The notes beneath the pieces are model-generated. The model was not told the DNA's origin, made no database searches, and worked only from the letters and a program-made list of their open reading frames with translations. Below, piece by piece: positions 5,867-43,933 of a stretch of DNA of 64,000 nucleotides. How positions within the stretch are numbered: the stretch's first letter is position 1; every line of letters begins with the position of its first letter. A program made the translations under genes and the position numbers. Source of the stretch: Bacillus sp. NP157 (lineage in GTDB: Bacteria; Pseudomonadota; Gammaproteobacteria; Xanthomonadales; Rhodanobacteraceae); the NCBI GenBank assembly GCA_018889975.1, contig CP076546.1:1488001-1552000 (forward strand). The letters run 5' to 3'.

Positions 5867-8401
5867 TCAGAACGTCACGCGCAGGCCTGCATACCCGGCC
5901 CAGCCACGCATACCGTAGGTGCCGGTAAACGTCTGCCACGTACCCTCGCCATACACCTGCACGTGCCGGCCAAGCTGCGCCGTGGCACCCGCCGCGGCGC
6001 GCACGGCGTTGCCCACGCGCCCGCTGGCAAACCGCGCACCGACGTCGAAGGCTTCGCTGGAGACATCCACGCCAGGCGCACCGCCGGTGGTGTGGATCAG
6101 GTCGACGCGGCCGTAGGGTGCGAACGCGGGATTGACCGACCAGCCCAGCTGCACGCCCAGACGCGCACTGGTCTGCCCTGCCGTGCCCAGTGCGACATCC
6201 AGCCCATCGCTGTCCTGGAAGCGACGGAAGTTGAGCTGCTGGCGCTTGAGCTGGAACTGCGGCTCCACCGTCCAGTCGCCACCGATCGCCAGCGGCATGC
6301 CGGCCTCGACCGACATCACCCAGCCTGTGGCGCGGATATCGGCCACCTCGTCGCCGCGCATCGCGGTGGATACGTTGCCGTGGTAACGCGTACCCGAGAG
6401 CACGCCATCGACCCAGAAGCCATCGCCATGCTGCCACGTGATCCAGGCGGCCAAACCGTTCGCGGTGTACTTCGAGGAACTTTCGCCATCCAGTGCCTTC
6501 GGCGTCACGCGCGTGGTGCCGTGATCCACCGCCCAGCCAGCACGCAGCGAGCCGTTGTCGCCATCCAGCGCGATGACGCTACCGCCCACCTGCAGCGCGT
6601 TGACCTGCTGGTCGAAGTCATAGCCGAACTGCTTGAACGACAGGTTCGACGAATAACGCAACTGGCCGCCGAGGTAGCGCGCGAACATTTCACCGCCGAC
6701 CGGGTCATGCGATTCACCGTTGCGGATATCGCCCAGTCGCTGGTGCAGGCCATCGTTGAGCATGTCGCCGTAGGTGAGCAGCGCGGCGGGTGCCGAAAGG
6801 TAGGCAGGCACCTGCGGGACCACTTCGACGCGATCGCCCGGCTCGGGACCGGGGTTCGGGATTTCCGGTTCGTCAGGATTGCCCGGATTCTCCGGCTCGC
6901 CCGGGTTCTCCGGTTCACCGGGATTTTCGGGATCGACAGGCTTCACCGGCCCGCAGTCTTCCTCGCAGACATAGCTGTTACCCAGGCGGTAATCCCAGTT
7001 GAAGCCGCTGCCCACGAGTTGCTTCTGCGCGGGATCGACCTCACCCGGGCCGAAGGCGTAAAGCTTGTACTGGTACGGACCGGCCGCGACGTAGCCACCG
7101 GCCAGCTCGAACGCATCGCGACGCGAGGTGCCACCGACCTGGATCAGCGAGATGCCTTCGTTGGCATCGACGATGCCGTCCTTGTTGAGGTCGGTGAGGC
7201 CACCATTGCCCGTGGGCGTTACCACGACCCTGGTCGGCCCCGTGGTGGTGACATCGCCTTCGATGAGCAGGCGATCGGTCTGCTGCACGCCCAGCGAGCC
7301 GCCTTCGTTCAGCACGGTGTTGAAAGTGAGCACACCTCCCGTGCCGCCGAAATCTCCGCGTACGTGAAGGTCACGGTGCGACGCATCCGCAGCGGACATG
7401 AAGCTCGCCGCGCCATCGAGCGTCAGCGCGCTGACGTCCGATGCCGCCGTAACGTTCCAGCGCGACGTCGCGTCGACACCCACCGTGACATCACCATTGA
7501 TGGCACCCGTGAGGCTTGCCTGTCCACCCAGCGCCAGATTGAGGCTGCCCTGCTCGCCCACCACGACATTGCCGACGATATCGCTTGAACGAAGCGTTAC
7601 GTCGGCACTGGCCGGGGCGATGACACCAGGGCGCGATGTACCACCCACCACTTCCAGCGCGGTGCCATTGGAGCCGGTCAGCGTGCTGCCGTTGCTGATG
7701 TCGATGGTGACGTTGTCGGTGCCGCCGGCCAGCAGCGAGGTGACGCGGACCGCACTACCGCCCGTGGCTACTACCCGGGTGTTGTCCAGGGTGAGCTGGC
7801 GCACGGGCGCACCCACCCCGCCGCCGCGCTCGTCCTTGAAGACGGAAACGCCACTGGCCACGCCGGTGATGGTGGAATCGCGGACATCCACGCTGCCCCA
7901 GATGACGCCAAGCCCGGCATCGGCCCCGGTCAGCTGCGACCCACGGACCTGGGTGATCGAACCGCCGCTGGAACGCACGCCCATCCGCGCACCGGTGATG
8001 CTGCTCGAAGCGATGGTGACGTTGTTTGGCAGCGTAGCCACGCCGTCGGCCGCGGCCTGGACGCCGTCGCCCGTCGTCGACCGGATCGTCGCATCGGTGA
8101 TCACGCCGGTGCTGCCGTTGCGCAGCTCCACCGCGGCCGCGTTGGCGCCGTTGTGCAGCACACTGCCACCGGACATGAACAGCTTGCCCGACAGCGCGGT
8201 GACGCCTAGCGCATCGCCACCTTCGATTCGAAGCGTGGCACTGTTGAGCAACCACGTCTCGACAGGATCGCCTGGTGCCACCGTGGCTTCCCTGCCAGGG
8301 CCCAGCGTCGCTGCGTAGGCGGTGAAAGGCTGCAGCGAAAGGGCAGCAAGCACGGCGATAAAGAGGGGCGCACGACGCGCACGGGGATATAAGACGTCCA
8401 T
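5867..8401 (-). CDS. Autotransporter 1 (type V secretion): beta-helix-like passenger plus outer-membrane barrel
   Basis: 844 residues from the ATG at 8401 (GGAACGTTT upstream); the ORF stays open to 8509, but the segment before 8401 has no signal peptide. Residues 1 to about 30 form a signal peptide ending FTAYA. The passenger (about 31-480) is rich in Ser/Thr/Gly/Val with short repeating strands typical of a right-handed beta helix. A calcium-loop-like segment DLNKDGIVD (DNA 7166-7192) and a cysteine pair VCEEDCG follow. A linker of PENPGEP-type repeats lies near residues 485-517. The C-terminal ~280 residues are a beta-barrel ending GYAGLRVTF with the terminal Phe expected for Bam-dependent insertion. 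It is divergent from the repeat-protein operon starting at 8755 and is a clear paralogue of the autotransporter at 45026-47473. Confidence 0.92.
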   Translation of the reverse strand: MDVLYPRARRAPLFIAVLAALSLQPFTAYAATLGPGREATVAPGDPVETWLLNSATLRIEGGDALGVTALSGKLFMSGGSVLHNGANAAAVELRNGSTGVITDATIRSTTGDGVQAAADGVATLPNNVTIASSSITGARMGVRSSGGSITQVRGSQLTGADAGLGVIWGSVDVRDSTITGVASGVSVFKDERGGGVGAPVRQLTLDNTRVVATGGSAVRVTSLLAGGTDNVTIDISNGSTLTGSNGTALEVVGGTSRPGVIAPASADVTLRSSDIVGNVVVGEQGSLNLALGGQASLTGAINGDVTVGVDATSRWNVTAASDVSALTLDGAASFMSAADASHRDLHVRGDFGGTGGVLTFNTVLNEGGSLGVQQTDRLLIEGDVTTTGPTRVVVTPTGNGGLTDLNKDGIVDANEGISLIQVGGTSRRDAFELAGGYVAAGPYQYKLYAFGPGEVDPAQKQLVGSGFNWDYRLGNSYVCEEDCGPVKPVDPENPGEPENPGEPENPGNPDEPEIPNPGPEPGDRVEVVPQVPAYLSAPAALLTYGDMLNDGLHQRLGDIRNGESHDPVGGEMFARYLGGQLRYSSNLSFKQFGYDFDQQVNALQVGGSVIALDGDNGSLRAGWAVDHGTTRVTPKALDGESSSKYTANGLAAWITWQHGDGFWVDGVLSGTRYHGNVSTAMRGDEVADIRATGWVMSVEAGMPLAIGGDWTVEPQFQLKRQQLNFRRFQDSDGLDVALGTAGQTSARLGVQLGWSVNPAFAPYGRVDLIHTTGGAPGVDVSSEAFDVGARFASGRVGNAVRAAAGATAQLGRHVQVYGEGTWQTFTGTYGMRGWAGYAGLRVTF

Positions 8402-8754
8402 AAACGTTCCGGAAATGAGTGGGGGCCTCCGCAGCCGACGGGACGAAGCGGCGCTGCTTCGGGACTGAAACACGGGAGGGCAGGTAGCCTGCAATGCACA
8501 TTGCAGCACGCGTGATGGCGTCCGCCTATTAGGCGAACTCCTAAAAATGCACGACGATCGTTACCTTCCCCCGCCCCGGCAGTGGGCCACCGCTCGCGGA
8601 GATCACGTGGTTCCGGCACGTGGCCGCTAACCTACGCCGCCCGCATGAAGCGCGCGTGAAACCGCGGATCCTACGTCGAAAGGCCTATTCCATTGGCACG
8701 CGATCGGCGTAGCGTGCGCTGAAACGGAGTTCCAACCACGACAAGGAGTCGGCC
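8402..8754. promoter_or_regulatory. Divergent control region of island 1, 353 bp
   Basis: Non-coding region between autotransporter 1 and the first repeat protein. It must hold both promoters. It contains the palindrome at 8529-8544 (listed separately), preceded by an overlapping GCCTA-T-TAGGC element (8524-8534). I could not assign -35/-10 boxes with confidence. Confidence 0.6.
8529..8544. promoter_or_regulatory. Palindromic operator candidate TTAGG-N6-CCTAA
   Basis: The sequence is TTAGGCGAACTCCTAA. The spacing and half-sites match the palindrome at 43818-43833 (TTAGGCGATTGCCTAC) and, with one mismatch in the left arm, the one at 47670-47685. It lies 128 bp upstream of autotransporter 1 and about 210 bp upstream of the gene at 8755. 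Half-sites of this type suit a LuxR/NarL-class dimer, but the regulator is unknown. Confidence 0.5.
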
Positions 8755-10875
8755 ATGGCACGCAGCACCCCCCGCAAGCGCACGCATGTTTTTCCAGCCC
8801 GGCGCATCTATCTGCGCAACGGCAAAGGCCAGCCGGTCAGCCGATTCTTCATCACGCCGCTCGCTGCGGCTCCGGGGACCCGGGCCGTCCTTGACGGTGT
8901 CATAGAATTCGACGAGACGAAGTTTGCGCTCAAGGCGACGGGTACGCCGAACGAGGCCGAGCCCGACCATATCCTGCTCAAGAGCGAGCAAGGCAAAGAC
9001 ATCGAGGTCAAGGTGCCGATGGGGGACGAGCTCAACAAGGGAGAAGAAGTCACCCTTATCCTCAACGGCATCGAGCTCGAGACCAAGATCGTCCCGGAAG
9101 AGACGGACTTCTCGCCATTGCCCTTCACCATACCCGGTAACACGCCGCTGCTCGAGGGCACCAATTTCCTCAACTATCGACTCTATTATTCGAAAGGAAG
9201 CGGCGGCACGGACACCGGTCCCGGCGACCGTTTTGTCATTGATAAAGTAGCGCCCGGCGGCAGCCATTTCCTCGGCGCACCCGACGTGGATGCAGCTATC
9301 CGCGATGGCGGGCTGACCAAAGACAAGCTCGTCACCTTACCCGACGGCGTGACCAAGGGCCTCGCGTTGACGATTCCCAGCTACGAGGGCTTCGCCTACG
9401 GCGACAAGGTCGTCGCCATCGTCGACGGCAGCGCCGACTCCTACGTCACCGAATTCCCTTACGGCCACACCGGAGACCAGGTCGCCTACGCGACCCAGGC
9501 TGTGATTGCAGCCGCAGGCGATGGACTCATTGGCTTCCAGTACAGGATTACCGACCGGGCGGGCAACGTTTCCAGCAACTCCAACACGCTCACGGTGCAG
9601 GTTGTCCTGGAAGGTGCGCCGAACCTGAAGGCCGTCGAGGTACCGGCGTTCGACGACGATGACGACACAGGGGGCAAGCAGAAGCTGATCGACCTTGCCG
9701 ATGCGACCGCGAACGACGGTGTGGTCGTGATCATTCCGTGGAGCGTGGATTTCAAGCCGGGCGACGTACTCACGCTCTTCTGGGGTGAGGCGATGCTTAC
9801 GCCGTATACCATCACGGCAAGTGATGCCGACGCCGAGGACGACATCGTCATCGGCGTGATGTACCCCGCGATCTACGAGGAATGGACCGCCACCGCCAAC
9901 GACGCCGACCAGATCGTCCCCGTCGACGTGCTTTATCGTTTGAAGCGCGGTAGCGTTGACGTAGACACGTCTCCCTCGAAGACTGTCGACGTAAACGTCT
10001 ACCAGATTGGTGGTGGGGATCCCGACCCCGAGACCCCCGGAAACGACAACCTGCAAAAGCCCACCCTGGTCGCCGCCAGCAACGCCCGCGACAAGATCGA
10101 GGGGGATGATTTTGGCAAGCCTGCGACAGTCGAAGTGCCTAAGCAGACACGCCACGCCACGCCGCGCGATGTCTTCAAGCTGGACGATGTCGTCACCGTG
10201 ACCTACCAGGACGAGGCATTGCCGCCCCATACCATCGTCGCGGGCGACCTGACGGATCTTACCGAGCCCCTTGTTTTCAGTATCCCCGCCAAGGTCATCG
10301 AGGATGCCGGAAGCGGGACGATGGCCCTGCAATACGCCATTACCCGTGCCGTCCAGGGCGGTGAGAACACGACCATGTCACCCGTCAAGGACGTCGTCGT
10401 CCATGGCAAGGATGAACTGCCGGGTGACGGCCAGGAGCTCGCTGCCGCGCTATGCCCCGAGAGCGAGGACACCTGGATGGATATGTCTAAGATCAATGAC
10501 GGGACCTTGCTCGCCCTGCCAGAGTGGACGCGGTTCAACGGCACCGGGCAGGAAGTCCTCATCGAGTTCATGTACTTCAGCGCGCGGGACGGCTCACCCA
10601 TTCCGGCACGCGGCTTCCAGCAGCGACTGGCTTCGCCGCTTACGTTGCTCGACGCGGAGTCACAACCGGTGAAGGAGCCGGACGGCAACGAAAGGCAGCC
10701 GGTCGAGGTTCCCTACGTGGCCTACCGCATCCCGCGGGAACGACTGGTCTACCAGCTGCCCGACAACCGCTTTTTCTATATCGAGGCGGTCTACAAGGTG
10801 AACAACACGTCAGGTGAAACCACGCCGGTCGCATCCGCCCCCGTGCAGATCAAGATCGATACACGCGGCTCCTGA
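8755..10875 (+). CDS. Ig-like-repeat protein, island 1, first gene (706 aa)
   Basis: No known function. The start is firm, with AAGGAG six bases before the ATG. The protein has no signal peptide; it opens with a basic stretch (MARSTPRKRTHVFPARR). After that come tandem beta-sandwich-like units of about 100-130 residues. Each has an x-IPxxxxxxxGDxVxVxW-like strand in its middle and ends in a phrase such as IGFQYRITDRAGNVSSNS. Residues about 420-435 carry the linker GGGDPDPETPGNDNL, which recurs in other members (PGGQDPNPATPENEAL at 47788; PGDPADPSARFNEAL at 10899). The gene heads the operon opposite autotransporter 1, 23 bp before the next paralogue. A surface adhesin-type role is possible, but the export route is unclear. 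Confidence 0.8.
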   Translation: MARSTPRKRTHVFPARRIYLRNGKGQPVSRFFITPLAAAPGTRAVLDGVIEFDETKFALKATGTPNEAEPDHILLKSEQGKDIEVKVPMGDELNKGEEVTLILNGIELETKIVPEETDFSPLPFTIPGNTPLLEGTNFLNYRLYYSKGSGGTDTGPGDRFVIDKVAPGGSHFLGAPDVDAAIRDGGLTKDKLVTLPDGVTKGLALTIPSYEGFAYGDKVVAIVDGSADSYVTEFPYGHTGDQVAYATQAVIAAAGDGLIGFQYRITDRAGNVSSNSNTLTVQVVLEGAPNLKAVEVPAFDDDDDTGGKQKLIDLADATANDGVVVIIPWSVDFKPGDVLTLFWGEAMLTPYTITASDADAEDDIVIGVMYPAIYEEWTATANDADQIVPVDVLYRLKRGSVDVDTSPSKTVDVNVYQIGGGDPDPETPGNDNLQKPTLVAASNARDKIEGDDFGKPATVEVPKQTRHATPRDVFKLDDVVTVTYQDEALPPHTIVAGDLTDLTEPLVFSIPAKVIEDAGSGTMALQYAITRAVQGGENTTMSPVKDVVVHGKDELPGDGQELAAALCPESEDTWMDMSKINDGTLLALPEWTRFNGTGQEVLIEFMYFSARDGSPIPARGFQQRLASPLTLLDAESQPVKEPDGNERQPVEVPYVAYRIPRERLVYQLPDNRFFYIEAVYKVNNTSGETTPVASAPVQIKIDTRGS

Positions 10876-10898
10876 GACCCAACCGCAAGGATGCGACC
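10876..10898 (+). repeat. Conserved 23-bp leader, copy 1
   Basis: A GACCC...CGCAAGGATGCGACC leader lies directly before the ATG at 10899 and recurs nearly unchanged before 14416 and 17451. It contains the ribosome-binding AAGGA. The three copies show that the genes arose by tandem duplication including their translation signal. Confidence 0.85.
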
Positions 10899-13800
10899 AT
10901 GCATACCCACCCACGTTCCACCCGCCGCCCGCGCGCGGCGGTACTGCCCCAGATGATCATGCCCGACATCAAAGATGGCGGACTGGGGCATTTCGATTTG
11001 ATCGCCGATCCCTACGCCCGTGTGCGGATGGTGATGGGTCCGCTGAGCCTCGACGAAGTAGGCCCCGGCGACACCCTGCGCGCCTTCATGAAGGTCGGCG
11101 CTGAAGAAAAGCAGATCGCCAGCCATGTCATCCAGCCTGGCGACCTGCCAGAGAGTCGCCAGGGCAGTCCGGTCTTTACGCTGGAAGCCAACGCATCGGA
11201 GATCAACAAGTATCCCGATGGCGAGTACGACTTCAGTTACGACGTGCTCTACAGCAACGGCAATTCCGATGGAAGCATCGAGCCCTTGCGCGTTCGGATC
11301 AAGCGCACGATCCCGGGTGATCCGGCCGATCCGAGCGCGCGTTTCAACGAGGCATTGGTCCTAGCCGAGGTCGTGCCCAGTCCGGTACCAGCGTCAGCGA
11401 CCGCGGTCACGGTCACCGTGCCCGCTTGGACTAACATGGCCGAGGGCGACGTCGCCATCGTGGACTGGGAAAGGCTACGCCTGACACTGCCAGCGGTGAC
11501 CGCCAGCGACGTCGGGCGGCCCGTATCCGTCACGCTCACGCGCGAGCAGCTGGAGCAGGTGGGTGGGATTCAGGATCTGCCGGTGTCGTATGAGATCTTC
11601 GACGTGGTCAGCAACCATTCGGGGCACTCGCGTTTCACCCTGGTCGACGTGGAGATTGAGCCGCCGGATGCGCTGACGGCCCCACGGATTCGCGAGGCCG
11701 ACAACGGCACGATCGATCCGCTGAAACAGGGCGACACGCCCTTTACAATCCAGATTCCAACCGCCGGCCGGCGGCAGGTGCGCGCCGCGCGCAATATCGA
11801 GCCGGGCGACACCATTACCGCGACCTTCGAGGGACGCATTCCCGGTACCGGTGCATCCCACAAATGGGTCAGTCCGTCGCTCACCGTGCCCGGCGCCATT
11901 TTTGATCTCACCATCGCCTTGCCGGTGGAAGAGGTCACGCCACTGGCCGGTGGCACCGCCCGCGTCTCTTATACCGTCCTGCCAGTCGGCGGCGATCCCG
12001 CCTTGCCATCCCGCCATCTCGGCATCGTCGTCGCTGGCGTCCCCGCATTGTTGCCCGCCGTCACGATTCCAGAAGATGCAAACGGCGACGAAACACTCGA
12101 TCCGAAAACGGAGATCGCCGATGGTGCAACTGCGGTCATCGAGTACCCCAACATGGCGCTGGATGACTACATCACCCTCGACCTGCTCGGCCGCCGCGCC
12201 AACGGCATGGCCGACAATGACCAGAAATACCGGCAGGTCTCCCACCTCGGACCGCAATCGGTGCATATCGGCACCGATTACCTCGGTCGCCTCGACGGCG
12301 GCACGCTAGAACTAAAATACACCTCGGTAAGCTTCGATGGTGTCGCGGAATTGCGAGCTACCCGCGAATCCGAAACGCGCACCTTCACCATCGGCAGCCA
12401 GCCGGTAGAGCCGAAGCTTCCCGCGCCCTTCGTAGCCGGCGTCGTCGACAGCCTTCTGCCACCGTCAACACGCCAGAGCGAAGTCGTCGTCTCCCGTAGC
12501 GTGCTTCAGGTCGGCGACGGTGTCGACTACATATGGGCCAGCGTCAAGAGCGACAGCGCGCATCTCACCGTGCGCAATCTCAACGATGACCTGCGTTTCG
12601 ACGTGGATGGTGAGTTGATCAGGGCCAACGACGGAAGTGAGGTGGCGGTAAGCTACATCCGTACACGGAATGGTAACGTCGCACGCTCGGAGGAAGCGCG
12701 CTTTGCTATCGAGGAGGCTGTCTTCCTGCCTGCGCCGATGGTCAAGGAGGCTGTTGCGGACAACCTGGTGCCCGGCGCCGCGACGGGTGGTGCAACCGTG
12801 CAGGTGCCCGCCCGCCTCACCCAGACCGACACTGTCATCGTGCATTTCGCCAGCTACGACAGCCCGCCGACTAACTGGTCAGATGACCTGGAAATCGTCG
12901 TACCTCCGGGCGAAGTGGCGAAGGTACTGGGGACTACCATCGACGTTACATATACCGTCAATGGCAGACGCACTTCCGCGCTGTACGCACTCCATGTACT
13001 CGATTTCAGGGCCGACGATCCGGCACTTCCGCGGCCGTCCATCCTGCAAGCCGTCAACGGCGAGCTCGACCTAAGGACGTTTGAAGGCGATGCGACATTG
13101 AGAATCGCACCCTGGCCGCTCATGGCAACCGGGCAAAAGGTCTGGCTCAGTGTCGAGGGCACGGCGGCCGATGGAACCACGGACGAGCTTGTCGTACTGA
13201 CAGCTGCTGCCGTCACGGACGGTGACGTATCCAACGGGCTCGAGAAGCCACTAAGTCGCACGTGGCTCGAATCCCTGGCGGCGACGTCAATCCTCAGCGT
13301 GTCGTGTTCTGCGACGTTTGACGGAAGCAGCGAGCCATCACGTTCTACGGCGTTCCCCGTGGGCTACTACACCTTACGTCGCGGTACCGACGACGACGAC
13401 GGACACGCCTATCTTCTCGAACCGTTCGATATTCCTTTCCCGGCGATCAATCGGACATACAATTTTCCCTACTTCGACGTGGCAGTATCGGTTTCGAACA
13501 CCTATTTGCGTAGCGATACCCACGAAACGCTGCCATACCTCACCGGCACGTCGATGCGCTTCTCCGACACGAGCAGACCATACACCCTCACGTTCATGCG
13601 ACCCTTCACCTTCGTGAAGCTAGGCGCTGGGCACACGTCGGTGACCTTCTTCGCCGAAGATGGTTCGGTACTAGCTACCAAGAACTCGACAACATACGGC
13701 AGCTGGATCGAATTCTCCAGCTCACCTGACAAGCCGATCGCCCGCCTTGACGTCCGGGAAACGGGCGGAGCCTACTCAATCGTGGACAACATCCAGATGG

Positions 13801-14288
13801 GGGGCAGCTCATGGGCGGAGCGAGCGCCCCCATTCAGAGAAACGTTCAAGGACATCGCACTTGGTGACTATGGAAAGCGTGCAAGGATTCCGCGCTGGCT
13901 GATCAACACAGATGGCGAGCACTTTTCGATCCACGACGCGCCGGAAGGCATGGATGGACGGGCACTCTTCTTCAATCACAGCATTGGCCAGACGCACCAA
14001 CTGACGCCTCGTTTCGCGATCGCGCCAAGATCGAGGATCGTGCTTCGCGTCAGCTCCACCCTTCAGACGGAGAAGATGATCAGGATCAGCCTCGCCTACG
14101 TGGACACTGTCGAACACACACAAAGATTTGCAAGCATGGCCGTACAGCTAGGCCAGACCCCAACGGATGTTGAATTCGCGGGCGGCGACTATGTCGCTCA
14201 CCCAGGAGAGTATCTGGCTCAGATCTTCATGGATCTCACCTCTGCGCCGGGCGCATCCATCTACTACGATGCCATCGAAATTGATTGA
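10899..14288 (+). CDS. Ig-like-repeat protein, tandem copy 1 (1129 aa), unique C-terminal module
   Basis: Closely related in its first ~820 residues to the next gene (14416). The N-terminal block contains MIMPDIKDGGLGHFDLIADP and the linker TIPGDPADPSARFNEAL. About six to seven beta-sandwich repeats follow, each opening with a phrase such as APRIREADNGTIDPL or KEAVADNLVPGAA and containing a GDxVxVxF/W strand. One repeat has a calcium-loop-like DANGDETLD (12075-12101). No signal peptide is seen. From about residue 830 the protein departs from its neighbour and ends in ~300 residues of two carbohydrate-binding-like beta-sandwich units (ITFxEDGS...IVDNIQ type), ending YYDAIEID. This terminal module resembles the last ~150 residues of the protein at 51946 in style. 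Function unknown; binding to a glycan is a hypothesis. Confidence 0.82.
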   Translation: MHTHPRSTRRPRAAVLPQMIMPDIKDGGLGHFDLIADPYARVRMVMGPLSLDEVGPGDTLRAFMKVGAEEKQIASHVIQPGDLPESRQGSPVFTLEANASEINKYPDGEYDFSYDVLYSNGNSDGSIEPLRVRIKRTIPGDPADPSARFNEALVLAEVVPSPVPASATAVTVTVPAWTNMAEGDVAIVDWERLRLTLPAVTASDVGRPVSVTLTREQLEQVGGIQDLPVSYEIFDVVSNHSGHSRFTLVDVEIEPPDALTAPRIREADNGTIDPLKQGDTPFTIQIPTAGRRQVRAARNIEPGDTITATFEGRIPGTGASHKWVSPSLTVPGAIFDLTIALPVEEVTPLAGGTARVSYTVLPVGGDPALPSRHLGIVVAGVPALLPAVTIPEDANGDETLDPKTEIADGATAVIEYPNMALDDYITLDLLGRRANGMADNDQKYRQVSHLGPQSVHIGTDYLGRLDGGTLELKYTSVSFDGVAELRATRESETRTFTIGSQPVEPKLPAPFVAGVVDSLLPPSTRQSEVVVSRSVLQVGDGVDYIWASVKSDSAHLTVRNLNDDLRFDVDGELIRANDGSEVAVSYIRTRNGNVARSEEARFAIEEAVFLPAPMVKEAVADNLVPGAATGGATVQVPARLTQTDTVIVHFASYDSPPTNWSDDLEIVVPPGEVAKVLGTTIDVTYTVNGRRTSALYALHVLDFRADDPALPRPSILQAVNGELDLRTFEGDATLRIAPWPLMATGQKVWLSVEGTAADGTTDELVVLTAAAVTDGDVSNGLEKPLSRTWLESLAATSILSVSCSATFDGSSEPSRSTAFPVGYYTLRRGTDDDDGHAYLLEPFDIPFPAINRTYNFPYFDVAVSVSNTYLRSDTHETLPYLTGTSMRFSDTSRPYTLTFMRPFTFVKLGAGHTSVTFFAEDGSVLATKNSTTYGSWIEFSSSPDKPIARLDVRETGGAYSIVDNIQMGGSSWAERAPPFRETFKDIALGDYGKRARIPRWLINTDGEHFSIHDAPEGMDGRALFFNHSIGQTHQLTPRFAIAPRSRIVLRVSSTLQTEKMIRISLAYVDTVEHTQRFASMAVQLGQTPTDVEFAGGDYVAHPGEYLAQIFMDLTSAPGASIYYDAIEID

Positions 14289-14306
14289 TTCACCGAAGCG
14301 AATCAA
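14285..14306 (+). terminator. Weak hairpin over the stop codon
   Basis: TTGATTC and GAATCAA pair across 8 bases and include the TGA stop of the preceding gene. The stem is short and A/T-rich with no T run, so it is at best a partial terminator between tandem copies. Confidence 0.25.
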
Positions 14307-14392
14307 GTCGAGCGAGGCCAGAACGTTTTTCCTGCAGGACCAGGCCGTTTGACTCGGTCGAGCCTGAGTAAGCCAACACTCCAGAACGGATA

Positions 14393-14415
14393 GACCCGAA
14401 CGCAAGGATGCGACC
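14393..14415 (+). repeat. Conserved 23-bp leader, copy 2
   Basis: GACCCGAACGC-AAGGATGCGACC directly before the ATG at 14416. It differs from copy 1 at two positions. Confidence 0.85.
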
Positions 14416-17394
14416 ATGCATACCCACCCACGCACCCTCCGCCGCCCTCGCGCCGCGGTACTGCCCAAAATGATCATCACCGACATCGACGATGGCGGCC
14501 TCGGGCATTTCGATTTGATCGCCGACCCCTACGCCCGCGTGGCGATGGTGATGGGTCCGCTGAGCCTCGACGAATTAGCTCCCGGCGACATGCTGCGCGC
14601 CTTCATGAACGTCGGCGGCGAAGAGAAGCAGATCGCCAGCCATGTGATCCAGCCGGGCGACCTGCCCGAGAGTCGCCAGGGCAGTCCGGTCTTTACGCTG
14701 GAAGCGAACGCCTCGGAGATCAACAGGTATCCCGATGGCGAGTACGACTTCAGTTACGACGTGCTCTACACCAACGGCAAGTCGGACGGCAGCATCGAGC
14801 CCTTGCGGGTGCGGATCAAGCGAACCATACCGGGCGATCCGGACGATCCGAGCGCGACGGTGAACGAAGGCCTGGCCCTCGCCGAGGTGGTGCCCAGCCC
14901 GGTGCAGTCGTCGGCCAGTTCAGTCACCGTCACCATTCCCGCCTGGACGAACATGGCCGAAGGTGATGTCCCCACCGTGGACTGGGAGCGCCTGCACCTG
15001 ACGCTGCCCGCCGTAAACACAGGCGGTGTCGGGCGGCCCGTGTCCGTCACGCTTACCCGCGACCAGCTCGAAGAAGTGGGCGGGATGCAGGATCTGCCGG
15101 TGTCGTATGAGATCTTCGACGTGGTCAGCAATCACTCTGGGCACTCGCGTTTCACCCTGGTCGACGTGGAGATCGAGCCGCCCGGTGCGCTGACGGCACC
15201 GCGGATCCGGGAGGCGGTCGATGGCGTGATCGATCCGAGGCAACAGGGAACTGATCCGTTTACGATCCAGATTCCCGCCATTGGCAGCCGGCAAGGACGC
15301 GAGGCACGTGACATCGCCCCAGGCGACCGGATCACCGCCACCTTCGAAGGCCGCATTCCCGGTACCGGCGCGTCGCACCAGTGGGTCAGCCCACCGCTCA
15401 TCGTGCCAAACCCCATTTTCAACCTGACCATTGCGTTGCCGGTGGACGAAGTCGCGCCATTGGCGGGCGGGACCGCAAGGGTTTCATATACGGTGTTGCC
15501 CGTCGGCGGCGGGCCAGCCCTGCCCTCTCGCCACCTCGGCATTGCCGTGGCCGGCGTACCCGAGCTGTTACCAGCCGTCACGATCCCCGAAGATGCCAAC
15601 GGCGACGACGTGCTCGATCCGCTCACCGAGATCGCCGAAGGTGCCACCGCGGTGATCGATTATCCCAACATGGCGCTGGACGACTACATCACTCTCGACC
15701 TGCTCGGTCGCCGCGCTAACGGCATGGCAGACAATGACCGGAAGTACCGTCAGGTTTCACACCTGGGGCCGCAGTCACTGACGATCAGCACTGACTACCT
15801 CACCCGCCTCGATGGCGGCACGCTGGAGCTCAAATACACCGCGGATAGCTTCGACGGCATCGCAGGAGTGCTGGCTCTGCGCGAATCCGAATCACGCACC
15901 GTCATCATCGGCAGCCAGCCTGAAGAGCCGAAGCTGCCCGCGCCTGCCGTCGCAGGGGTCGTCGACGGACTTCTCCCACCGTCTACACGGCAGAGCGAAG
16001 TGGTCGTCCCCCGCAGCGTGCTGCAGGTCGGCGACGGCGTGGACTACACCTGGCGCAGCGCCGTCAGCGACGGCGCCCACCTCACGGTGCGCAACCTCAA
16101 CGACGACCTGCGCTTCGACGTGGATGGTGAGTTGATCAAGGCTAACGACGGAAGCGACGTGGCGGTCGGTTACACGCGCACGCGCGACGGAACCGTCGCC
16201 CGGTCGGACGAGACCGTGTTTACCATTGCCGCGGCGGCACTCCTTCCCGCACCCACGGTCAAGGAGGCCGTGGCCGATCAACTGGATCCAGGTGCCGTGG
16301 CTGACGCTGGCGGGGCCACGGTACTCATCACCGCGGATCTGAAGCAGGGCGACGAAATCGTCGTTCACTTCGGCACTTGGGACAGTGCACCAGTGGCATG
16401 GACGCAGATGCTTGCCGTGATCGTGCCACCCGGGGCCGTCGCGCAATACCTGGGCGAGGCTATCGACGTCCTGTACACGGTGAACGGAAAAGCGAGTTCG
16501 CTGCCGCTTAGGCTGTATGTCCTGGCGTTTCGCGACGCGGATGCGCGATTGCCGAAACCGACCATAAAGGAGGCAAACGACGGCGTGATTGACCTGACGT
16601 CGTTCTCCGGGGACGCGACTGTCATCGTGGCACCATGGCAGCTCATGGCCGAGAGACAGAAAGCATGGCTTTACATCGAAGGTAGGGCGCCCGACGGCGC
16701 CACCAGCAAGCTGGATCTCCTGGATGCCATCGACATGTCAAGGGACGACCTGGTTAATGGCCTGACACGCGAGGTCGACCGTGGCTGGCTCGAAAGGCTG
16801 TCCGAAGGCTCAACGGTAACGCCGGTCCTCCTGGTCACGTTCAACCGCTCGCCCGAGGTGGCAGACGCCGTTCGCTTCCCTGCAAACGACTATCAACTGG
16901 TTCTCTACACTGATTTCTTCATCGACCCATCGGCCGTCACACTTCGCATCGGTCAACAGATGACCCGCGCGGCCAGCGGAGGGGCCCCGCCCTACAGCTA
17001 TGCCTCGGAGAACCCGAATGTAGCCAGCGTGGTCAACCCGTCCACCGGCATCGTACGCGGTATCGACGTCGGCACCACGACCATCGTCGCCACCGATGCC
17101 GCCAGGCATCGGGCCACCTATCCCGCATCCGTTACCGGGGCAATCGTCATCACTCCGCCGTCGCCAACCATGCACGTTGGCGACCGGGTCACCTTCACCT
17201 GCTCGGGTGGGTATCCGCCCTACAGATGGGTCATCCCGGACATTGATCGGTCAAGTCTCAGGATCGCTTCCGCGAGCGGTAACACGGCCGTCGTCGAAGC
17301 CATCGGGACTCTGCCGCCTCCTCCGCTGAAGGTGGTCCAGGTATTCGACTCGCATGGAACGCAGGGTGATGCAGGGCCGCATGTATACCCGTGA
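14416..17394 (+). CDS. Ig-like-repeat protein, tandem copy 2 (992 aa), Big_2-type C-terminus
   Basis: Nearly collinear with the 10899 gene from its first codon to about residue 810, sharing the N-terminal block, the GDPDDPSATVNEGL linker, the repeats and the DANGDDVLD calcium-loop-like segment (15592-15618). It then switches to a different end: two bacterial Ig-like (Big_2) units. The first contains PPYSYASENPNVASVV followed by GIVRGIDVGTTTIVATDA, a classic Big_2 pattern. The second contains VTFTCSGGYPPYRWVI. No signal peptide is present. The pattern of shared body and exchanged tip suggests module shuffling between paralogues. The same Big_2 tip occurs in the genes at 17751 and 49812. Confidence 0.85.
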   Translation: MHTHPRTLRRPRAAVLPKMIITDIDDGGLGHFDLIADPYARVAMVMGPLSLDELAPGDMLRAFMNVGGEEKQIASHVIQPGDLPESRQGSPVFTLEANASEINRYPDGEYDFSYDVLYTNGKSDGSIEPLRVRIKRTIPGDPDDPSATVNEGLALAEVVPSPVQSSASSVTVTIPAWTNMAEGDVPTVDWERLHLTLPAVNTGGVGRPVSVTLTRDQLEEVGGMQDLPVSYEIFDVVSNHSGHSRFTLVDVEIEPPGALTAPRIREAVDGVIDPRQQGTDPFTIQIPAIGSRQGREARDIAPGDRITATFEGRIPGTGASHQWVSPPLIVPNPIFNLTIALPVDEVAPLAGGTARVSYTVLPVGGGPALPSRHLGIAVAGVPELLPAVTIPEDANGDDVLDPLTEIAEGATAVIDYPNMALDDYITLDLLGRRANGMADNDRKYRQVSHLGPQSLTISTDYLTRLDGGTLELKYTADSFDGIAGVLALRESESRTVIIGSQPEEPKLPAPAVAGVVDGLLPPSTRQSEVVVPRSVLQVGDGVDYTWRSAVSDGAHLTVRNLNDDLRFDVDGELIKANDGSDVAVGYTRTRDGTVARSDETVFTIAAAALLPAPTVKEAVADQLDPGAVADAGGATVLITADLKQGDEIVVHFGTWDSAPVAWTQMLAVIVPPGAVAQYLGEAIDVLYTVNGKASSLPLRLYVLAFRDADARLPKPTIKEANDGVIDLTSFSGDATVIVAPWQLMAERQKAWLYIEGRAPDGATSKLDLLDAIDMSRDDLVNGLTREVDRGWLERLSEGSTVTPVLLVTFNRSPEVADAVRFPANDYQLVLYTDFFIDPSAVTLRIGQQMTRAASGGAPPYSYASENPNVASVVNPSTGIVRGIDVGTTTIVATDAARHRATYPASVTGAIVITPPSPTMHVGDRVTFTCSGGYPPYRWVIPDIDRSSLRIASASGNTAVVEAIGTLPPPPLKVVQVFDSHGTQGDAGPHVYP

Positions 17395-17427
17395 TATGTG
17401 GCCAGACGCACCCGCTGATGCCTGAAC

Positions 17428-17450
17428 GACCCGAACGCAAGGATGCAACC
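17428..17450 (+). repeat. Conserved 23-bp leader, copy 3
   Basis: GACCCGAACGC-AAGGATGCAACC lies before the ATG of the broken third copy at 17451. Only one base differs from copy 2. Confidence 0.85.
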
Positions 17451-17709
17451 ATGAAAACCACGCCGCTCCCCCGCCCGCCGCCCGCGCGCGGCCGTATTGC
17501 CCAAGATGATCATCACCGACATCGAAGATGGCGGGCTGCAAAATGACTCGGCCGAGATCCTGCAACTCCCAGAGGGCATTTCGACGTTCGATAGCGGGGC
17601 GCTCGGCTTGCCTGGCGAGATCGTCAACGTGGCGATCGCTGCCGAAGATGAAAAAAACAAGGAAAAAATGGACCTGTATCTTGGCTCGATCACCGCTATC
17701 TACCGGTAG
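17451..17709 (+). pseudogene. Frameshifted, truncated third copy of the Ig-repeat gene
   Basis: The leader and first codons match the two full-length copies, but a single extra base lies in the C-rich run between 17451 and 17500: 55 rather than 54 bases separate the ATG from the ATG of the MIITDI block. Reading from 17451 therefore ends at a TGA after 31 residues. In the other frame the block MIITDIEDGGL is recognisable from 17506, followed by about 58 unrelated residues ending at 17709. The rest of the body is missing. A TTG at 17497 or the ATG at 17506 could still make a peptide of 67-70 residues. It is most simply a decaying copy whose 3' part may survive as the gene at 17751. Confidence 0.7.
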
Positions 17710-17750
17710 GCCTCGATGAGGCCGGCCCAACGGGTGTCAAGGAGAGCGAC

Positions 17751-18980
17751 ATGAACGGACGTAACTCCCGTAACAAACCTTCCGCCACTTTCGACCCGCC
17801 CTTCGTACGTGGCGCGGTGAACGACCATGTCGACCCGGGACAGGGGAACGTCTACCTGGTGATCCCCCTCGACATCTTTATCGAGAAGGGCGATGAAATC
17901 GTCGTGACGCTTCGGGTCGATGACGGGTCGTCACGCGAGGAAACGCTTCATGCGACCAATGACGATGCCGCCGCGAGCATGCACCTCACGCCTGCCTACC
18001 TTGCCGCATGCGACGGCCATTCGGTCACGGCATCCTACAGCGTTACCGGCAAGGCCAACTCCCTGCCGTATCAGTTCAGCGTGGGACAGATCGGGCCCGC
18101 ACTGCCCGTCCCGATCGTCGCGGAGGCAGCTGGCGACAACCTGGACCCGGTCGCCGCACAGCGGGGCGCGACGGTGGAGATCCACGCCCAACTCAGCCAC
18201 AGCGATACCGTGGTCGTCCACTTCGGCGAATACAGCAGCGCACCCGTGAACGGGAAAGCCAACCTCAAGGTCGTCATCCCGCCGGGGGAGGTTGCCAGGG
18301 TGCTCGGTGAGGCGGTCGATGTCGTCTATACGGTCAATGAAAAACGTACCTCGCCTGCCCTGGTCCTGCACGTTCTCAACTTCCACGAGGACGACGCGAG
18401 GCTTCCGTTGCCGAGCATAAGGGAGGCCTTTGGAACCGCGGAGCTCGACCTTTTGCTCGTGCATGGATCAGCCCATGCCTCGGTATCGGCGTGGCCGCTC
18501 ATGGCCGAGGGGCAGGTTCTCTGGATGGATATCAGCTGGGAGGGCGGTGAGATCGCGATGTTTACCGCGCACCGGCTGACGGCAGCCGAAGCGGGAAAGT
18601 CCTTCACCGTTGCCATCGTGCGTGATGAACTGGACCGCATGAGCGCCGGAACCCCGTTCATCCTGCGGCTTAGAGTCACGTTCAACGGCTCGACCCGCGA
18701 GTCCGAGGCCATAACGTTCAGGGTGCACCGCTACACGCTCCTCAAAACCCTGCCGATCGACATCGACCGGACGCCGGTGACCCTCAAGGTCGGTGAGAAA
18801 TACCAGCGGTCCGCGACCAACGGAAAACTCCCGTACCGGTATGAGTCGCTCGTGCCGTCGGTCGTCCGCGTCACCGACGCGGCGCAGGGGGACATCGTCG
18901 CGGTGGCGCGTGGCGAAAGCTACATCATGGTCAGCGATGCGACGGGCGAGGAAGTGCCGTATCACGTGTATGTCACCTGA
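17751..18980 (+). CDS. Ig-like-repeat protein, short member (409 aa)
   Basis: AAGGAGAGCGAC precedes the ATG. The protein matches the last third of the 14416 and 10899 proteins: a repeat opening AEAAGDNLDPVAAQRGATV, one containing SVSAWPLMAEGQVLW, and a Big_2-like end (LPYRYESLVPSVVRVT ... YIMVSDATGEE). It lacks the conserved N-terminal block, which sits instead in the broken copy just upstream, so the pair looks like one ancestral gene that lost its middle. No signal peptide. A strong terminator follows. Function unknown; it probably shares the job of the longer paralogues. Confidence 0.8.
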   Translation: MNGRNSRNKPSATFDPPFVRGAVNDHVDPGQGNVYLVIPLDIFIEKGDEIVVTLRVDDGSSREETLHATNDDAAASMHLTPAYLAACDGHSVTASYSVTGKANSLPYQFSVGQIGPALPVPIVAEAAGDNLDPVAAQRGATVEIHAQLSHSDTVVVHFGEYSSAPVNGKANLKVVIPPGEVARVLGEAVDVVYTVNEKRTSPALVLHVLNFHEDDARLPLPSIREAFGTAELDLLLVHGSAHASVSAWPLMAEGQVLWMDISWEGGEIAMFTAHRLTAAEAGKSFTVAIVRDELDRMSAGTPFILRLRVTFNGSTRESEAITFRVHRYTLLKTLPIDIDRTPVTLKVGEKYQRSATNGKLPYRYESLVPSVVRVTDAAQGDIVAVARGESYIMVSDATGEEVPYHVYVT

Positions 18981-19163: not shown

Positions 19164-19316
19164 ATGAAAGCCGACGGGAAGCTGCGGGATTCGAAGGACC
19201 AGGGGACGTGGGGTGGCGGGCTGGCCGGTCTGGCCGGGTCCGCTATCGCGTACCTGGCCATTCGGCCTATGCCTTCGCGTCGCTCCATCAGCAGCGCGGG
19301 GCACGGCCATGAATGA
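19164..19316 (+). CDS. Possible 50-residue membrane peptide overlapping the NRPS-PKS start
   Basis: An ATG at 19164 preceded by GGGGGATCGC opens a 50-codon frame ending 8 bp inside the next gene. It begins [13 protein letters not shown] and has one hydrophobic helix, [17 protein letters not shown]. The overlap would allow translational coupling to the NRPS-PKS start at 19309. The rest of the 328-bp gap (18981-19308) holds only the terminator and the inverted repeat. The hydrophobic stretch could be chance in such G/C-rich sequence. Confidence 0.35.
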
Positions 19317-25300: not shown

Positions 25301-26109
25301 GCCGTCCGGACTTCCAGCCGGTGGAGTTCCTGCAGGAGCTGCGTGCGATCACCGAAGAAGCCGGCTCCCTGCTGATCTTCGACGAAGTGGTCACCGGTTT
25401 CCGCTCGCATCCGCGCGGCGCGCAGCACGTTCTGGGCATCGATGCGGACATGGCCTCGTATGGCAAGGTCGTCGGCGGAGGCTTCCCGATCGGCGTCATC
25501 GCCGGCAAGCGTCGCTTCATGGACGCGCTGGACGGCGGCGACTGGCGCTTCGGGGATGCCTCCGTGCCGACGGTCGGCGTCACCTATTTCGCCGGCACCT
25601 TCGTCCGCCACCCCCTGGCCCTGGCCGCCGCACACGCGGTGCTCACCCACCTGGCCGAGCATGGCGAAGGCCTGCAGGCAGCGCTCAACGCGCGGGTCAC
25701 CGCGATGGCCCAGGAGATGAACGACTTCTGCGCGAGCGTCGGCGCGCCGCTGAAGATCGTCCACTTCGCCTCGGTGTGGAAAACCACCTTCACCGAAGAC
25801 CATCCGCTGCAGGAGCTGGTGTTCGCGATGATGCGCAGCCGCGGCATCCACATCCTCGACAACTTCCCCTGCTTCTTCACCACCGCGCACCGCGAGGAAG
25901 ATTTCGCCGCCATCGTCGGTGCGTTCCGCGAATCGATCCTTGAAATGCAAGAAGCGGAATTCCTGCCGCGCTACCGCGAAGCACCCGCCTTCGACGCCAG
26001 CCACCCGCCGATCCCCGGTGCGCGGCTGGGCAAGGACCCCGACGGCCAGCCCGCGTGGTTCGTTCCCAACCCGGATGCGCCGGGCAAGTACCTGAGGGTT
26101 ACCGCATGA
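19309..26109 (+). CDS. Hybrid NRPS-PKS, A-T-KS-AT-ACP-aminotransferase (2266 aa)
   Basis: The ATG at 19309 begins the first adenylation sequence; the ORF is open further upstream but unrelated there. Order: A domain (~10-520) with [11 protein letters not shown] at 162, NGYGPTE near 300, YRTGDL near 383 and [10 protein letters not shown] near 503; T domain ([13 protein letters not shown] near 548); KS (~615-1040) with NTACSTS near 785, [12 protein letters not shown] and KSNVGHLV, all three catalytic residues present; AT (~1125-1450) with GHSVGE near 1224 and HAFHS, typical of malonyl-CoA; ACP (ELGLDSLS near 1583); class III aminotransferase (~1770-2250) with its PLP lysine in SYGKVVGGG near 2053. 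There is no KR. Expected chemistry: load an amino acid, add malonate, convert the beta-keto group to an amine. A hand-aligned pocket D-A-L-W-L-G-G-T-F resembles valine codes as I recall them (low certainty). Four in-frame REP elements lie in linkers. Confidence 0.93.
19732..19755 (-). repeat. REP element 1, in frame in the A domain
   Basis: On the plus strand it reads GGTCGCGCGC...GCGCGCTCCTAC; the minus strand starts GTAGGAGC. It encodes GRAQARSY in the variable loop before the A3 core motif. It is identical to element 2 over all 24 bases and is in the same reading frame (963 bp apart). Confidence 0.88.
20695..20718 (-). repeat. REP element 2, in frame in the A domain C-terminal part
   Basis: A 24-base copy identical to element 1, again encoding GRAQARSY, in the loop before the LPEYMVP segment. 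Just upstream, ACGGTCGC is repeated, giving DGRTDGRA. Confidence 0.88.
23852..23876 (-). repeat. REP element 3, in frame between AT and ACP
   Basis: A 25-base palindrome (GATCGCGCGC...GCGCGCTCCTAC on the plus strand) encoding SRAGRAPT in the linker before the ACP. It is the exact reverse complement of element 4. Confidence 0.88.
24448..24472 (+). repeat. REP element 4, in frame between ACP and aminotransferase
   Basis: On the plus strand it begins GTAGGAGCGCGC and ends GCGCGCGATC. It encodes [10 protein letters not shown] in an Ala/Pro-rich linker. With element 3 it forms an inverted pair around the ACP-coding segment. Confidence 0.88.
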
Positions 26110-41496: not shown

Positions 41497-42755
41497 TCAT
41501 CCTCGCCGTCTTCCTCGGACTGGTCGTCCTGTTCGCAGCCGCCGTCACGGTGGCCATCCGCGCGCGCAACATGCAGTACTGGCTGTGGGGCTACCTCACC
41601 CGACGCAAGGCGCCGAAGGCCGAGGGGACCCGGCATATCGTGTTCTGCTTCGTCGACCATTTCGAACCCAACTGGGGCCGGGTCGACCTGGATCGCCAGC
41701 GCCAACGCGTCAACCGCTGGTGCAAGGATTACCGCGAACTGGCCGGTCGCCATCGTGACGCCGACGGTCGCCCGCCCCAGCACAGCTTCTTCTACCCCGA
41801 AGAGGAATACGTCGAGGAACACCTGGACAAGCTGGCCAGCCTCTGTGCGGACGGTTACGGCGAGATCGAAATCCACCTGCACCACGACGACGACACCGCC
41901 GAAAACTTCACGGCCACCATCGACCGGTTCAACACGCTGTTGCACGAGCGCCACGGGGCCCTCCCGCGCGACCCGGTCACCGGGCAGCTGAAGTTCGCCT
42001 TCATCCACGGCAACTGGTGCCTGGCCAACAGCCGGCCGGACGGAAAGTGGTGCGGTATCAACAACGAGCTGGTGCTGCTCCGCGAGCTTGGCTGCTATGC
42101 CGACTTCACGCTGCCCTCGGCACCCAGCGATACCCAGACGAGGATGTCCAACGCGATCTACTACGCGGCCGACAACCCCGGTAAGCCGAAGGGCCACGAC
42201 ACCGGCGTGCGCATGCGCGTCGGCGGCAAGCCCAGCGGCGACCTGCTGATCATCCAGGGTGTCCTCGGGCTCAACTGGAAGAAGCGCCGCTTCGGCATCC
42301 TCCCCCGCATCGAGAACTCCGATATCCGCCAGGGCTGCCCGCCGACGCGCGACCGCGTGGACCAGTGGGTCGATACCGCCATCCATGTCGAGGGGCGCCC
42401 GGAGTGGATCTTCATCAAGATCCACACCCACGGCACCCAGGAACGGGACATGGACACGTTGCTAGGCCAGCCCGTCGATGCGATGCACAGCTATCTCGAG
42501 TCGCGCTACAACGATGGCAAGGACTACGCGCTGCACTACGTGACAGCGCGCGAGATGTACAACATCGCCAAGGCCGCCGAAGCCGGGATGACGGGAAACC
42601 CGAACCTCTACCGCAATTTCGAGCTCGGCGTACCGCCGGGCGTCCGTCAGGACGGCACGCCAGAGTCCGGAAAGTCCTCCTCGGACTCCAGGAAATCGAA
42701 CATCACGTTCGCCGGGTCGGACACGCTCAGGATGCCCTCCCGCTCGACGTCGTAG
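41493..42755 (+). CDS. Membrane-anchored EPS-locus protein of unknown function, 3' end antisense to next gene
   Basis: 420 residues in an ATGA overlap. An N-terminal membrane helix (IILAVFLGLVVLFAAAVTVAI) is followed by a soluble domain with metal-site-like clusters: CFVDHFEPNW, EIHLHHDDDT, FIHGNWCLANS and IKIHTHGTQERD. The arrangement suggests a distant deacetylase or glycosidase-type barrel, but I do not recognise the family. The last ~36 residues (from about QDGTPES) are encoded opposite the 3' end of the repeat protein on the minus strand and look unlike the rest. This suggests the original stop was lost when island 2 joined here. Confidence 0.75.
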   Translation: MIILAVFLGLVVLFAAAVTVAIRARNMQYWLWGYLTRRKAPKAEGTRHIVFCFVDHFEPNWGRVDLDRQRQRVNRWCKDYRELAGRHRDADGRPPQHSFFYPEEEYVEEHLDKLASLCADGYGEIEIHLHHDDDTAENFTATIDRFNTLLHERHGALPRDPVTGQLKFAFIHGNWCLANSRPDGKWCGINNELVLLRELGCYADFTLPSAPSDTQTRMSNAIYYAADNPGKPKGHDTGVRMRVGGKPSGDLLIIQGVLGLNWKKRRFGILPRIENSDIRQGCPPTRDRVDQWVDTAIHVEGRPEWIFIKIHTHGTQERDMDTLLGQPVDAMHSYLESRYNDGKDYALHYVTAREMYNIAKAAEAGMTGNPNLYRNFELGVPPGVRQDGTPESGKSSSDSRKSNITFAGSDTLRMPSRSTS

Positions 42756-43528
42756 GCCACCTCGAGCGGGAACGTGCAGGAACCGCGGTCACGGAGGATG
42801 TCCATCAGGTCCTCGTACGACACGAGCAGTTGCACCATGGGGTCCTGCGTGACGTCGGTGCGCAGCAGGGTCACCTCGCCCGAGAACACGTCACCGACAC
42901 GCAGGCGGATGCGGTCGCCGGTCACGCACGGCGGGGTCGTCGCCGGGATCGTCACGATCAACTCGGGGCTGATGTCCGTCTGCGAGATCTTCGTCCAGCC
43001 CAGGCGCACGCCCGGCGCAGGCATCACGGCAGGCGCATCCTTGATGAGCATATGCACCGTGGTCACAGGCGCACGCCCCTTCGAAGCGCCATCGGCATCC
43101 CACACTTCGTAGAAGATCTCCACGCGACCGTTCTCACGAAAGCTTTCGAAGACATCGCGGCCAAAGCGCACCGTCAGCGGCATGTCGCTCACGCCGGGCG
43201 ACAGCACGCCGATACGAATGGTCTGGCGCATGCCCCGCGGGCGAGCAAGCAGGACGATGTGGTCGTCCTTCGCCTGCCCCTTGTACGCGGGGATGATCCC
43301 AACCAGCTCCGCACACGGCATGGCCAGCAGGCTCACCAGCGAAAGGCCATCCTGCTCGATGGCATCCGGGAACACGATCCGCGAGAGATGCTGGCGACGC
43401 TTATGGGTGCGCTCGCTCTGCATCACGACGGGGCAGCCACGCTCGTTACGCAGCGGGGACTGGGTCAACATGAGGTACTCGTACGACTGATCGCGATCGG
43501 TGACCGACGGTTTCTCTTCTTGCGTCAC
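42647..43528 (-). CDS. Ig-like-repeat family protein (293 aa), island 2
   Basis: The GTG at 43528 is preferred because AAGGAG lies eight bases upstream; an upstream GTG at 43567 has no ribosome site. The protein contains HLSRIVFPDAIEQDGLSL, which matches LLPRIIF...IERDGIS in the 47788 protein and LLSRIMFPQRFHAEGV in the 43934 protein, then a GDxIxLxV strand (VTGDRIRLRVGDVF) and a Big-like end. No signal peptide. Its last 109 bp run antisense to the end of the EPS gene at 41493. It is divergent from the 43934 gene across the 43818 palindrome. Function unknown. Confidence 0.75.
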   Translation of the reverse strand: MTQEEKPSVTDRDQSYEYLMLTQSPLRNERGCPVVMQSERTHKRRQHLSRIVFPDAIEQDGLSLVSLLAMPCAELVGIIPAYKGQAKDDHIVLLARPRGMRQTIRIGVLSPGVSDMPLTVRFGRDVFESFRENGRVEIFYEVWDADGASKGRAPVTTVHMLIKDAPAVMPAPGVRLGWTKISQTDISPELIVTIPATTPPCVTGDRIRLRVGDVFSGEVTLLRTDVTQDPMVQLLVSYEDLMDILRDRGSCTFPLEVAYDVEREGILSVSDPANVMFDFLESEEDFPDSGVPS

Positions 43529-43933
43529 GACGGCAACTCCTTCTGTGCGTGTTGGTGGTGAGGGCACAGGTTAGGCGTCGAGGAAGCCCTGAAAAATCGG
43601 GGAATGCCTCGAATGCGGCGGCATGCCGCCCATAAAGGTTTGTAAGCCCCCACCTCCCGTAAACACCAAAAGCTCTATTTATCATATAGTTGTGGCGTAG
43701 CAGGGGCGTTGTCGTGAGCTGCGCAACCTGCATCCGTGGGGCGATCGCCTCCAATGCACCTACCCGAGCGCCCTAGGGCCGCTACGGGGAAATTCCTTCA
43801 GAAAAGCCCTACGCTTGTTAGGCGATTGCCTACCCAAGACGGAGTGGATAACCGGCGGTCCGATGGCCAGTTCGCTGATTCTGGGTAGAAGCGCAAATGT
43901 TTAGATTTGCTGCTCCTTCAACCGGAGCACGAA
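43529..43933. promoter_or_regulatory. Divergent control region in island 2, 405 bp
   Basis: Non-coding, with an A/T-rich patch at about 43660-43695 (CTCTATTTATCATATAG) that is a reasonable promoter candidate, and the palindrome at 43818-43833. No RNA gene or ORF stands out. Confidence 0.55.
43818..43833. promoter_or_regulatory. Palindromic operator candidate TTAGG-N6-CCTAC
   Basis: TTAGGCGATTGCCTAC. It shares its first eight bases and half-site spacing with the island 1 element at 8529-8544, and lies 100 bp before the 43934 start. Confidence 0.5.

Follow-up and report, generated by a model that had tools for sequence, protein, structure and literature searches.

Immunoglobulin-like array proteins without signal peptides accompany an autotransporter across distant genera and diversify with its passenger

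What do large repeat proteins with the build of surface adhesins do beside an autotransporter (AT) when none of them has a signal peptide? The locus that raises this question, island 1, lies in a 64,000 nt stretch of DNA (hereafter the window; positions 1,488,001 to 1,552,000 of contig CP076546.1, assembly GCA_018889975.1) deposited under the name Bacillus sp. NP157; its 4.88 Mb genome is that of a Luteibacter. The original prediction, made from the letters of the window alone, described an AT gene divergent from an operon of four repeat genes (encoding 706, 1129, 992 and 409 residues) plus a broken copy, and we found every part where it had been placed. Our computations show that the AT stays linked to two types of signal-less protein, here called A and B, in distantly related genera, and that the AT passenger diversifies jointly with A and B whereas the AT barrel and the neighboring genes do not.

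The AT gene of island 1 (AT1) encodes in one polypeptide, and in this order, a Sec signal peptide, a β-helix passenger, an AC_1 autochaperone, a Pro-rich linker and a C-terminal β-domain, which places it in type Va. Its profile matches are PF03797 (100 bits, cut-off 26), PF18883 AC_1 (65 bits, cut-off 27) and TIGR01414 (169 bits). The divergent genes encode arrays of a unit of ~100 aa. A unit profile, iterated from two starting units until it converged over the fetched loci, recovered 404 copies in 92 proteins, with 3–8 copies in each repeat protein of island 1 and the consensus LPAPTVPEADDGVLDP...GATVRVP...GDTVTLTWGG...VSYTV.... Pfam and NCBIfam named no family for most A and B proteins and recognized hardly any of the units. 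Judged by their sequences, the arrays of A and B are one family of ~100 aa immunoglobulin-like (Ig-like) units that has no name.

A search of PDB sequences with the unit profile matched Ig-like and other proteins at chance level only. The predicted models of one A and one B were strings of β-sandwiches, with mean predicted local distance difference test (pLDDT) scores of 68 and 65, respectively, and values of mostly 70–90 over the first 470 residues of B. Their structural matches in the PDB were Ig and fibronectin type III (FnIII) arrays, among them SiiE, MpAFP and other bacterial adhesins, and the models thus conform to a tandem β-sandwich fold of the bacterial Ig-like (Big/FnIII) type. The Ig-like units of the original prediction were borne out, as was its linker motif PGG-x2-P-x-P-x-TP-x-NE, present as PGGxDPxPxTPxNE in many unit proteins; Big_2 exceeded the curated cut-off only in the 992 aa protein among the island 1 proteins, and the carbohydrate-binding C-terminus proposed for the 1129 aa protein had no family match.

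Type A proteins comprise about 650–750 residues, usually adjoin the AT and end at the last β-strand; their N-terminus is a stretch of low confidence that contains several basic residues in many of them. In type B, the units start immediately, and both the length (about 480–2600 residues) and the tip vary, the latter carrying Big_2, RCC1 or no family assignment. The two long B proteins of island 1, B1 and B2, are 74% identical across residues 1–833 and differ beyond, indicating that the tip was exchanged. The broken copy contains ...RRPRAAVLPKMIITDIEDGGL..., which is the start of B, then diverges and stops. An unusual tip was seen in the B protein of a Yersinia frederiksenii plasmid (L083:11794-15327), which ends in RCC1 repeats (PF13540, 49 bits).

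Signal peptides were sought with a script on hydrophobicity and charge, not SignalP, that also considered in-frame starts as far back as the preceding stop, over at most 60 codons. No Sec or Tat signal was found in the island 1 repeat proteins, upstream in-frame extension included, so that the claim of signal-less proteins held and mis-annotated starts were ruled out as the cause of the missing signals. Across the loci, 4 of 134 unit-bearing proteins had a convincing signal peptide versus about 33 of 39 ATs, and all four carry an extra N-terminal domain of ~300 residues ahead of the units and belong to orphan clusters (L058 and L065). The signal-less unit proteins contained 0.36% Cys, closer to the 0.24% of ATs than to the 0.91% of the remaining signal-less genes in these loci. 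The low Cys content of A and B is suggestive of an extracellular location.

The pairing extends well beyond the window. Of 22 other Luteibacter genomes, 19 have the AT and the repeat genes within a single fetched locus (≤20 kb). In G007, G010 and G002, genes spanning about 10 kb separate the two; the island 1 AT of G002 is a pseudogene. Two of the three exceptions (G006 and G016) are interrupted by contig ends, and the third, G021, has neither A nor B and retains only a 312-residue barrel remnant of the AT beside the nonribosomal peptide synthetase (NRPS) gene, a case of co-loss. In G016, the locus was probably broken by assembly (L055/L056): the island 1 AT occupies two frames at the end of one contig, and the next contig terminates in six repeat genes.

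An alignment of gene B alone, searched against 84,980 genomes, yielded seven loci in Pseudomonas, four in Pandoraea and two in Luteibacter, and a plasmid search added Y. frederiksenii. All 11 informative loci from Pseudomonas, Pandoraea and the Yersinia plasmid, namely those with enough flank, have an AT near the repeat genes; in two Pandoraea loci, the AT starts just past the 10 kb flank. A gene A profile applied blind to ATs in a draw on the phylum and family gave eight strong loci, seven of which have an AT (L127–L131, L133 and L134), one of these in a genome of another class, and the eighth (L132) is a second locus near a contig end. As the counted genomes encode 3–16 AT barrels in 4.2–6.7 Mb, an AT would lie within 10 kb by chance for roughly 1–8% of loci. 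Gene order and orientation vary (divergent, convergent or co-directional), but the linkage persists. The co-occurrence that the original prediction had proposed to survey therefore did not fail among strong relatives with enough flank, save for the one second-copy locus near a contig end.

Other searches returned less. A class-wide sample searched with unit profile A1 gave nothing outside the window genome, a search that we judge too insensitive because the full-length A profile detected additional carriers when applied to the phylum and family. No relative was found in viral contigs with A3, and a phage collection contained a single unannotated 5.7 kb metagenomic record, not convincingly phage, in which a B-type and an alpha/beta-hydrolase-like gene are neighbors. 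Two weak relatives (L135 and L136) have no type Va AT in 20 kb, and YadA-head proteins adjoin instead. In these loci, which belong to another genus of the same family (L135:8702-19663 and L136:2-10754), one N-terminal leader, MKKHNGHSNG...PSGLQATLxxKIAxxLAQT, which has no hydrophobic signal region, occurs both in the unit proteins and in the huge YadA-head-repeat proteins next to them; this leader may be a common targeting element.

We compared pairwise identities among 14 Luteibacter genomes whose island 1 loci are comparable. On average, A was 27%, B 25% and the passenger 31% identical, against 63% in the autochaperone and linker region, 74% in the barrel and 79% in the NRPS next to it. Distances of A correlated with those of the passenger (r=0.70) but not with those of the barrel or the NRPS (0.14 each). 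The partial correlation between A and passenger, given NRPS and barrel, was 0.72, which none of 10,000 permutations reached, and the correlation held after the closest pairs were removed. Segment analysis resolved two blocks, one of passenger, A and the start of B, and the other of linker, barrel and NRPS, with the autochaperone intermediate.

Two pairs of genomes illustrate how these blocks have changed. Between the sister species G03 and G22, DNA identity is 95% over the barrel and 93% on the NRPS side while the intervening 5.6 kb has no detectable similarity, indicating that the passenger and its signal-less neighbors were replaced together with a break inside the AT gene. Between G07 and G10, the passenger is 60% and A 48% identical though about 10 kb of genes separates them; the four intervening genes compared are 91–93% (two genes), 77% and 52% identical. 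This one pair argues that the variability would belong to the passenger–A pair and not only be a side effect of one contiguous exchange. The joint change of the variable parts of the AT and the arrays suggests an undescribed surface or recognition system.

The same plan was found in island 2, where the original prediction had also seen the pairing, with an AT (AT2) whose barrel is homologous to that of AT1, and with two half-length A-type genes beyond AT2 (Table 1). Half-A genes also occur near the ATs of G001, G002, G007, G008 and G013. A C-type-lectin tip of the 686 aa B protein was suspected by eye and is not claimed here; the tip has a pLDDT of about 30 in the model. Directly after island 1, inside a polysaccharide-type cluster, stand hybrid NRPS/polyketide synthase genes with an aminotransferase-like region (window positions 19309-32483), and most Luteibacter genomes have the same order. 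The window gave no Rfam or tRNA matches. Next to the repeat genes of Pseudomonas and Pandoraea lies a family of secreted proteins or lipoproteins marked by the signature ...RYNDTRANC...PSFLCSGV...; in two Luteibacter genomes, it is fused to Ig units and has a signal peptide. No family model matched it; it is reminiscent of halovibrin-type proteins.

Table 1. Genes of islands 1 and 2 (window positions) and members of the RYNDTRANC-signature family (positions within the fetched locus named).
Feature	Location	Strand	Remarks
AT1, type Va autotransporter of island 1	5867..8401	-	From the ATG that begins the signal peptide; GTG start possible at 8509
Protein A, 706 aa	8755..10875	+	Signal-less Ig-array; repeat gene closest to AT1
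Protein B1, 1129 aa	10899..14288	+	Seven Ig-like units and a C-terminal tip without family match
Protein B2, 992 aa	14416..17394	+	Tip with Big_2, unlike that of B1
Truncated third B copy	17395..17709	+	N-terminal remnant; 80% match over 25 aa
B-type protein, 409 aa	17751..18980	+	Three units and Big_2-like tail
Half-length A-type relative	42647..43567	-	Far side of AT2; overlaps the 3′ end of 41493-42755
Half-length A-type relative, 306 aa	43934..44854	+	Two units
AT2, autotransporter of island 2	45026..47473	-	AC_1, 30 bits
Protein A of island 2, 669 aa	47788..49797	+	With PGGQDPNPATPENE linker
Protein B of island 2, 686 aa	49812..51872	+	Four Ig-like units, then tip
Second B-type protein of island 2, 411 aa	51946..53181	+	Two units
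RYNDTRANC-signature family	L058:10914-14669	-	
RYNDTRANC-signature family	L065:4855-9534	-	
RYNDTRANC-signature family	L085:2-1646	-	
RYNDTRANC-signature family	L091:640-1572	-	
RYNDTRANC-signature family	L090:19639-21075		
RYNDTRANC-signature family	L096:6406-8016	-	

How, then, might these proteins work together? We favor, with a probability of about 0.45, a reading of the locus as a polymorphic surface module of two components, the A and B arrays being cognate partners of the passenger. From the sequences we infer that A and B would be located on the surface, dock there and have a route of export. The passenger would be displayed outside the cell by its own barrel and act as the cognate partner of A and, via A, of B. 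Protein A would be the conserved connector, usually beside the AT and ending at its last β-strand, and B an arm of variable length whose exchangeable tip could serve for adhesion or for recognizing other cells. Both would leave the cytosol without a Sec/Tat signal, by another route or by lysis, and dock on the passenger. The original prediction of a conserved functional system is well supported by the co-occurrence and by the absence of a dedicated export system common to the carriers. It also offered two alternatives, an unexplained export route and a role inside the cell, and both still stand; Cys depletion, variable tips, co-variation with the passenger and the four Sec-exported relatives of the unit make us lean to export, short of proof.

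Several points weigh against a surface module. A and B have no detectable export signal, and our search for an exporter identified none. Cys depletion may be general in Ig-array proteins and is weak evidence. The models of A and B have mean pLDDT values of only 65–68, and that of B gives no structure for the tip. Linked block exchange could yield the co-variation without physical contact; only the single pair G07/G10 argues otherwise, and one of its intervening genes is also just 52% identical.

The main rival holds that A and B are cytosolic and might be dedicated holding factors for the AT before its export, or might form the intracellular side of a kin-recognition pair with the passenger as its outer side, much as some exported effectors have cytosolic cognates. 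It accords with the lack of a signal peptide in about 130 proteins, and a passenger that co-varies with a signal-less partner would also be expected of cognate inside/outside pairs. However, A and B are far larger than the passenger, they are Cys-depleted Ig arrays with exchangeable tips, no added toxin-like Pfam domain was found in the passenger, and a holding factor would hardly explain the extra B copies. We consider this explanation unlikely. Less probable again is a bolder form of the surface module, in which the AT itself would help to export or display the separate Ig arrays by a Sec-independent two-partner route, with the passenger as allele-specific dock, and would constitute a new polymorphic surface system.

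Alternatively, a known Sec-independent machine (type I, III or VI) whose genes lie elsewhere might export A and B, the neighboring AT being a co-regulated adhesin. The closest solved folds include the type I adhesins SiiE and MpAFP, which likewise have no Sec signal, and TolC is present in all carriers checked, a ubiquity that is uninformative. In contrast, the type VI sheath gene, VipA, is absent in 8 of 23 Luteibacter genomes including that of the window, as would not be expected if A and B were type VI cargo, and a type I HlyD adaptor exceeded the cut-off in only 6 of 23, so a dedicated ABC/HlyD/TolC exporter is not present in all carriers. The last β-strand of A proteins lies within about 15 residues of the C-terminus, which leaves no room for a C-terminal type I signal; this test covers A proteins only, and such a region is not excluded in B, whose tips vary. 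The type III secretion needle had no match in carriers, but the control was silent too. A dedicated secretion system, which the original prediction had named as evidence against itself, was thus not found in common among the carriers, and we rate export by a known machine as quite unlikely.

It is more doubtful still that A and B are released solely when cells lyse or leak and, captured by the AT, serve as shared adhesins of the matrix. Such a mode would be consistent with the missing signals, with the extracellular traits and with carriers having no exporter in common, and the islands lie inside a polysaccharide-type cluster in Luteibacter, but no lysis gene was seen in the modules. Finally, an accident of neighborhood, with variable genes hitchhiking in a hypervariable spot of the polysaccharide/NRPS cluster, would suit the Luteibacter locus, a replacement hotspot between conserved genes, but is very improbable, being contradicted by the pairing in Pseudomonas, Pandoraea and Yersinia, in other orientations and without the Luteibacter NRPS neighbors in the gene maps of the fetched loci (which also rules out a shared NRPS context as cause of the pairing), and by A following the passenger, not the barrel or the NRPS.

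Either place of action would have consequences. Extracellular A and B would mean that proteobacteria have a way of exporting very large Ig arrays that current knowledge lacks; intracellular action would make them cytosolic proteins that follow an exported passenger from allele to allele.

Taken alone, the AT gene is an ordinary member of type Va with AC_1. The locus differs from type Va in that signal-less Ig-array genes accompany the AT almost everywhere and co-vary with its passenger. It resembles two-partner secretion (type Vb, TpsA/TpsB) in that an outer-membrane β-barrel protein and a large adhesin-like protein are encoded together. In such systems, a Sec signal and a TPS domain are features of TpsA, and POTRA domains are features of TpsB. 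Here, no Sec signal is present on the large partner, and the protein with the barrel also carries a passenger of its own; no Pfam match to the TPS (haemagglutination activity) domain was found in the four island 1 proteins, island 2 or relatives.

The Ig-like arrays, Big_2 and variable tip are reminiscent of intimin/invasin (type Ve), and weak NCBIfam intimin matches were found over the Big_2 region (E 1e-4 to 7e-6). In contrast to intimin/invasin, the Ig-array protein has no barrel or signal peptide, its units starting within about 10–70 residues of the protein start without a fused inverse-autotransporter barrel, and the barrel belongs to a separate type Va protein. The type I giant adhesins (SiiE, LapA/MpAFP type) share tandem Ig-like domains, the absence of an N-terminal Sec signal and a similar predicted fold, but here there is no adjacent ABC exporter, A has no C-terminal secretion region and most carriers have no dedicated HlyD. 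No description of the pairing was found in the searchable literature; as subscription journals are mostly outside it, an earlier description is possible. Since none of the described secretion and adhesin systems that we tested fits the combination, we rate it as categorically new, built of parts with known folds.

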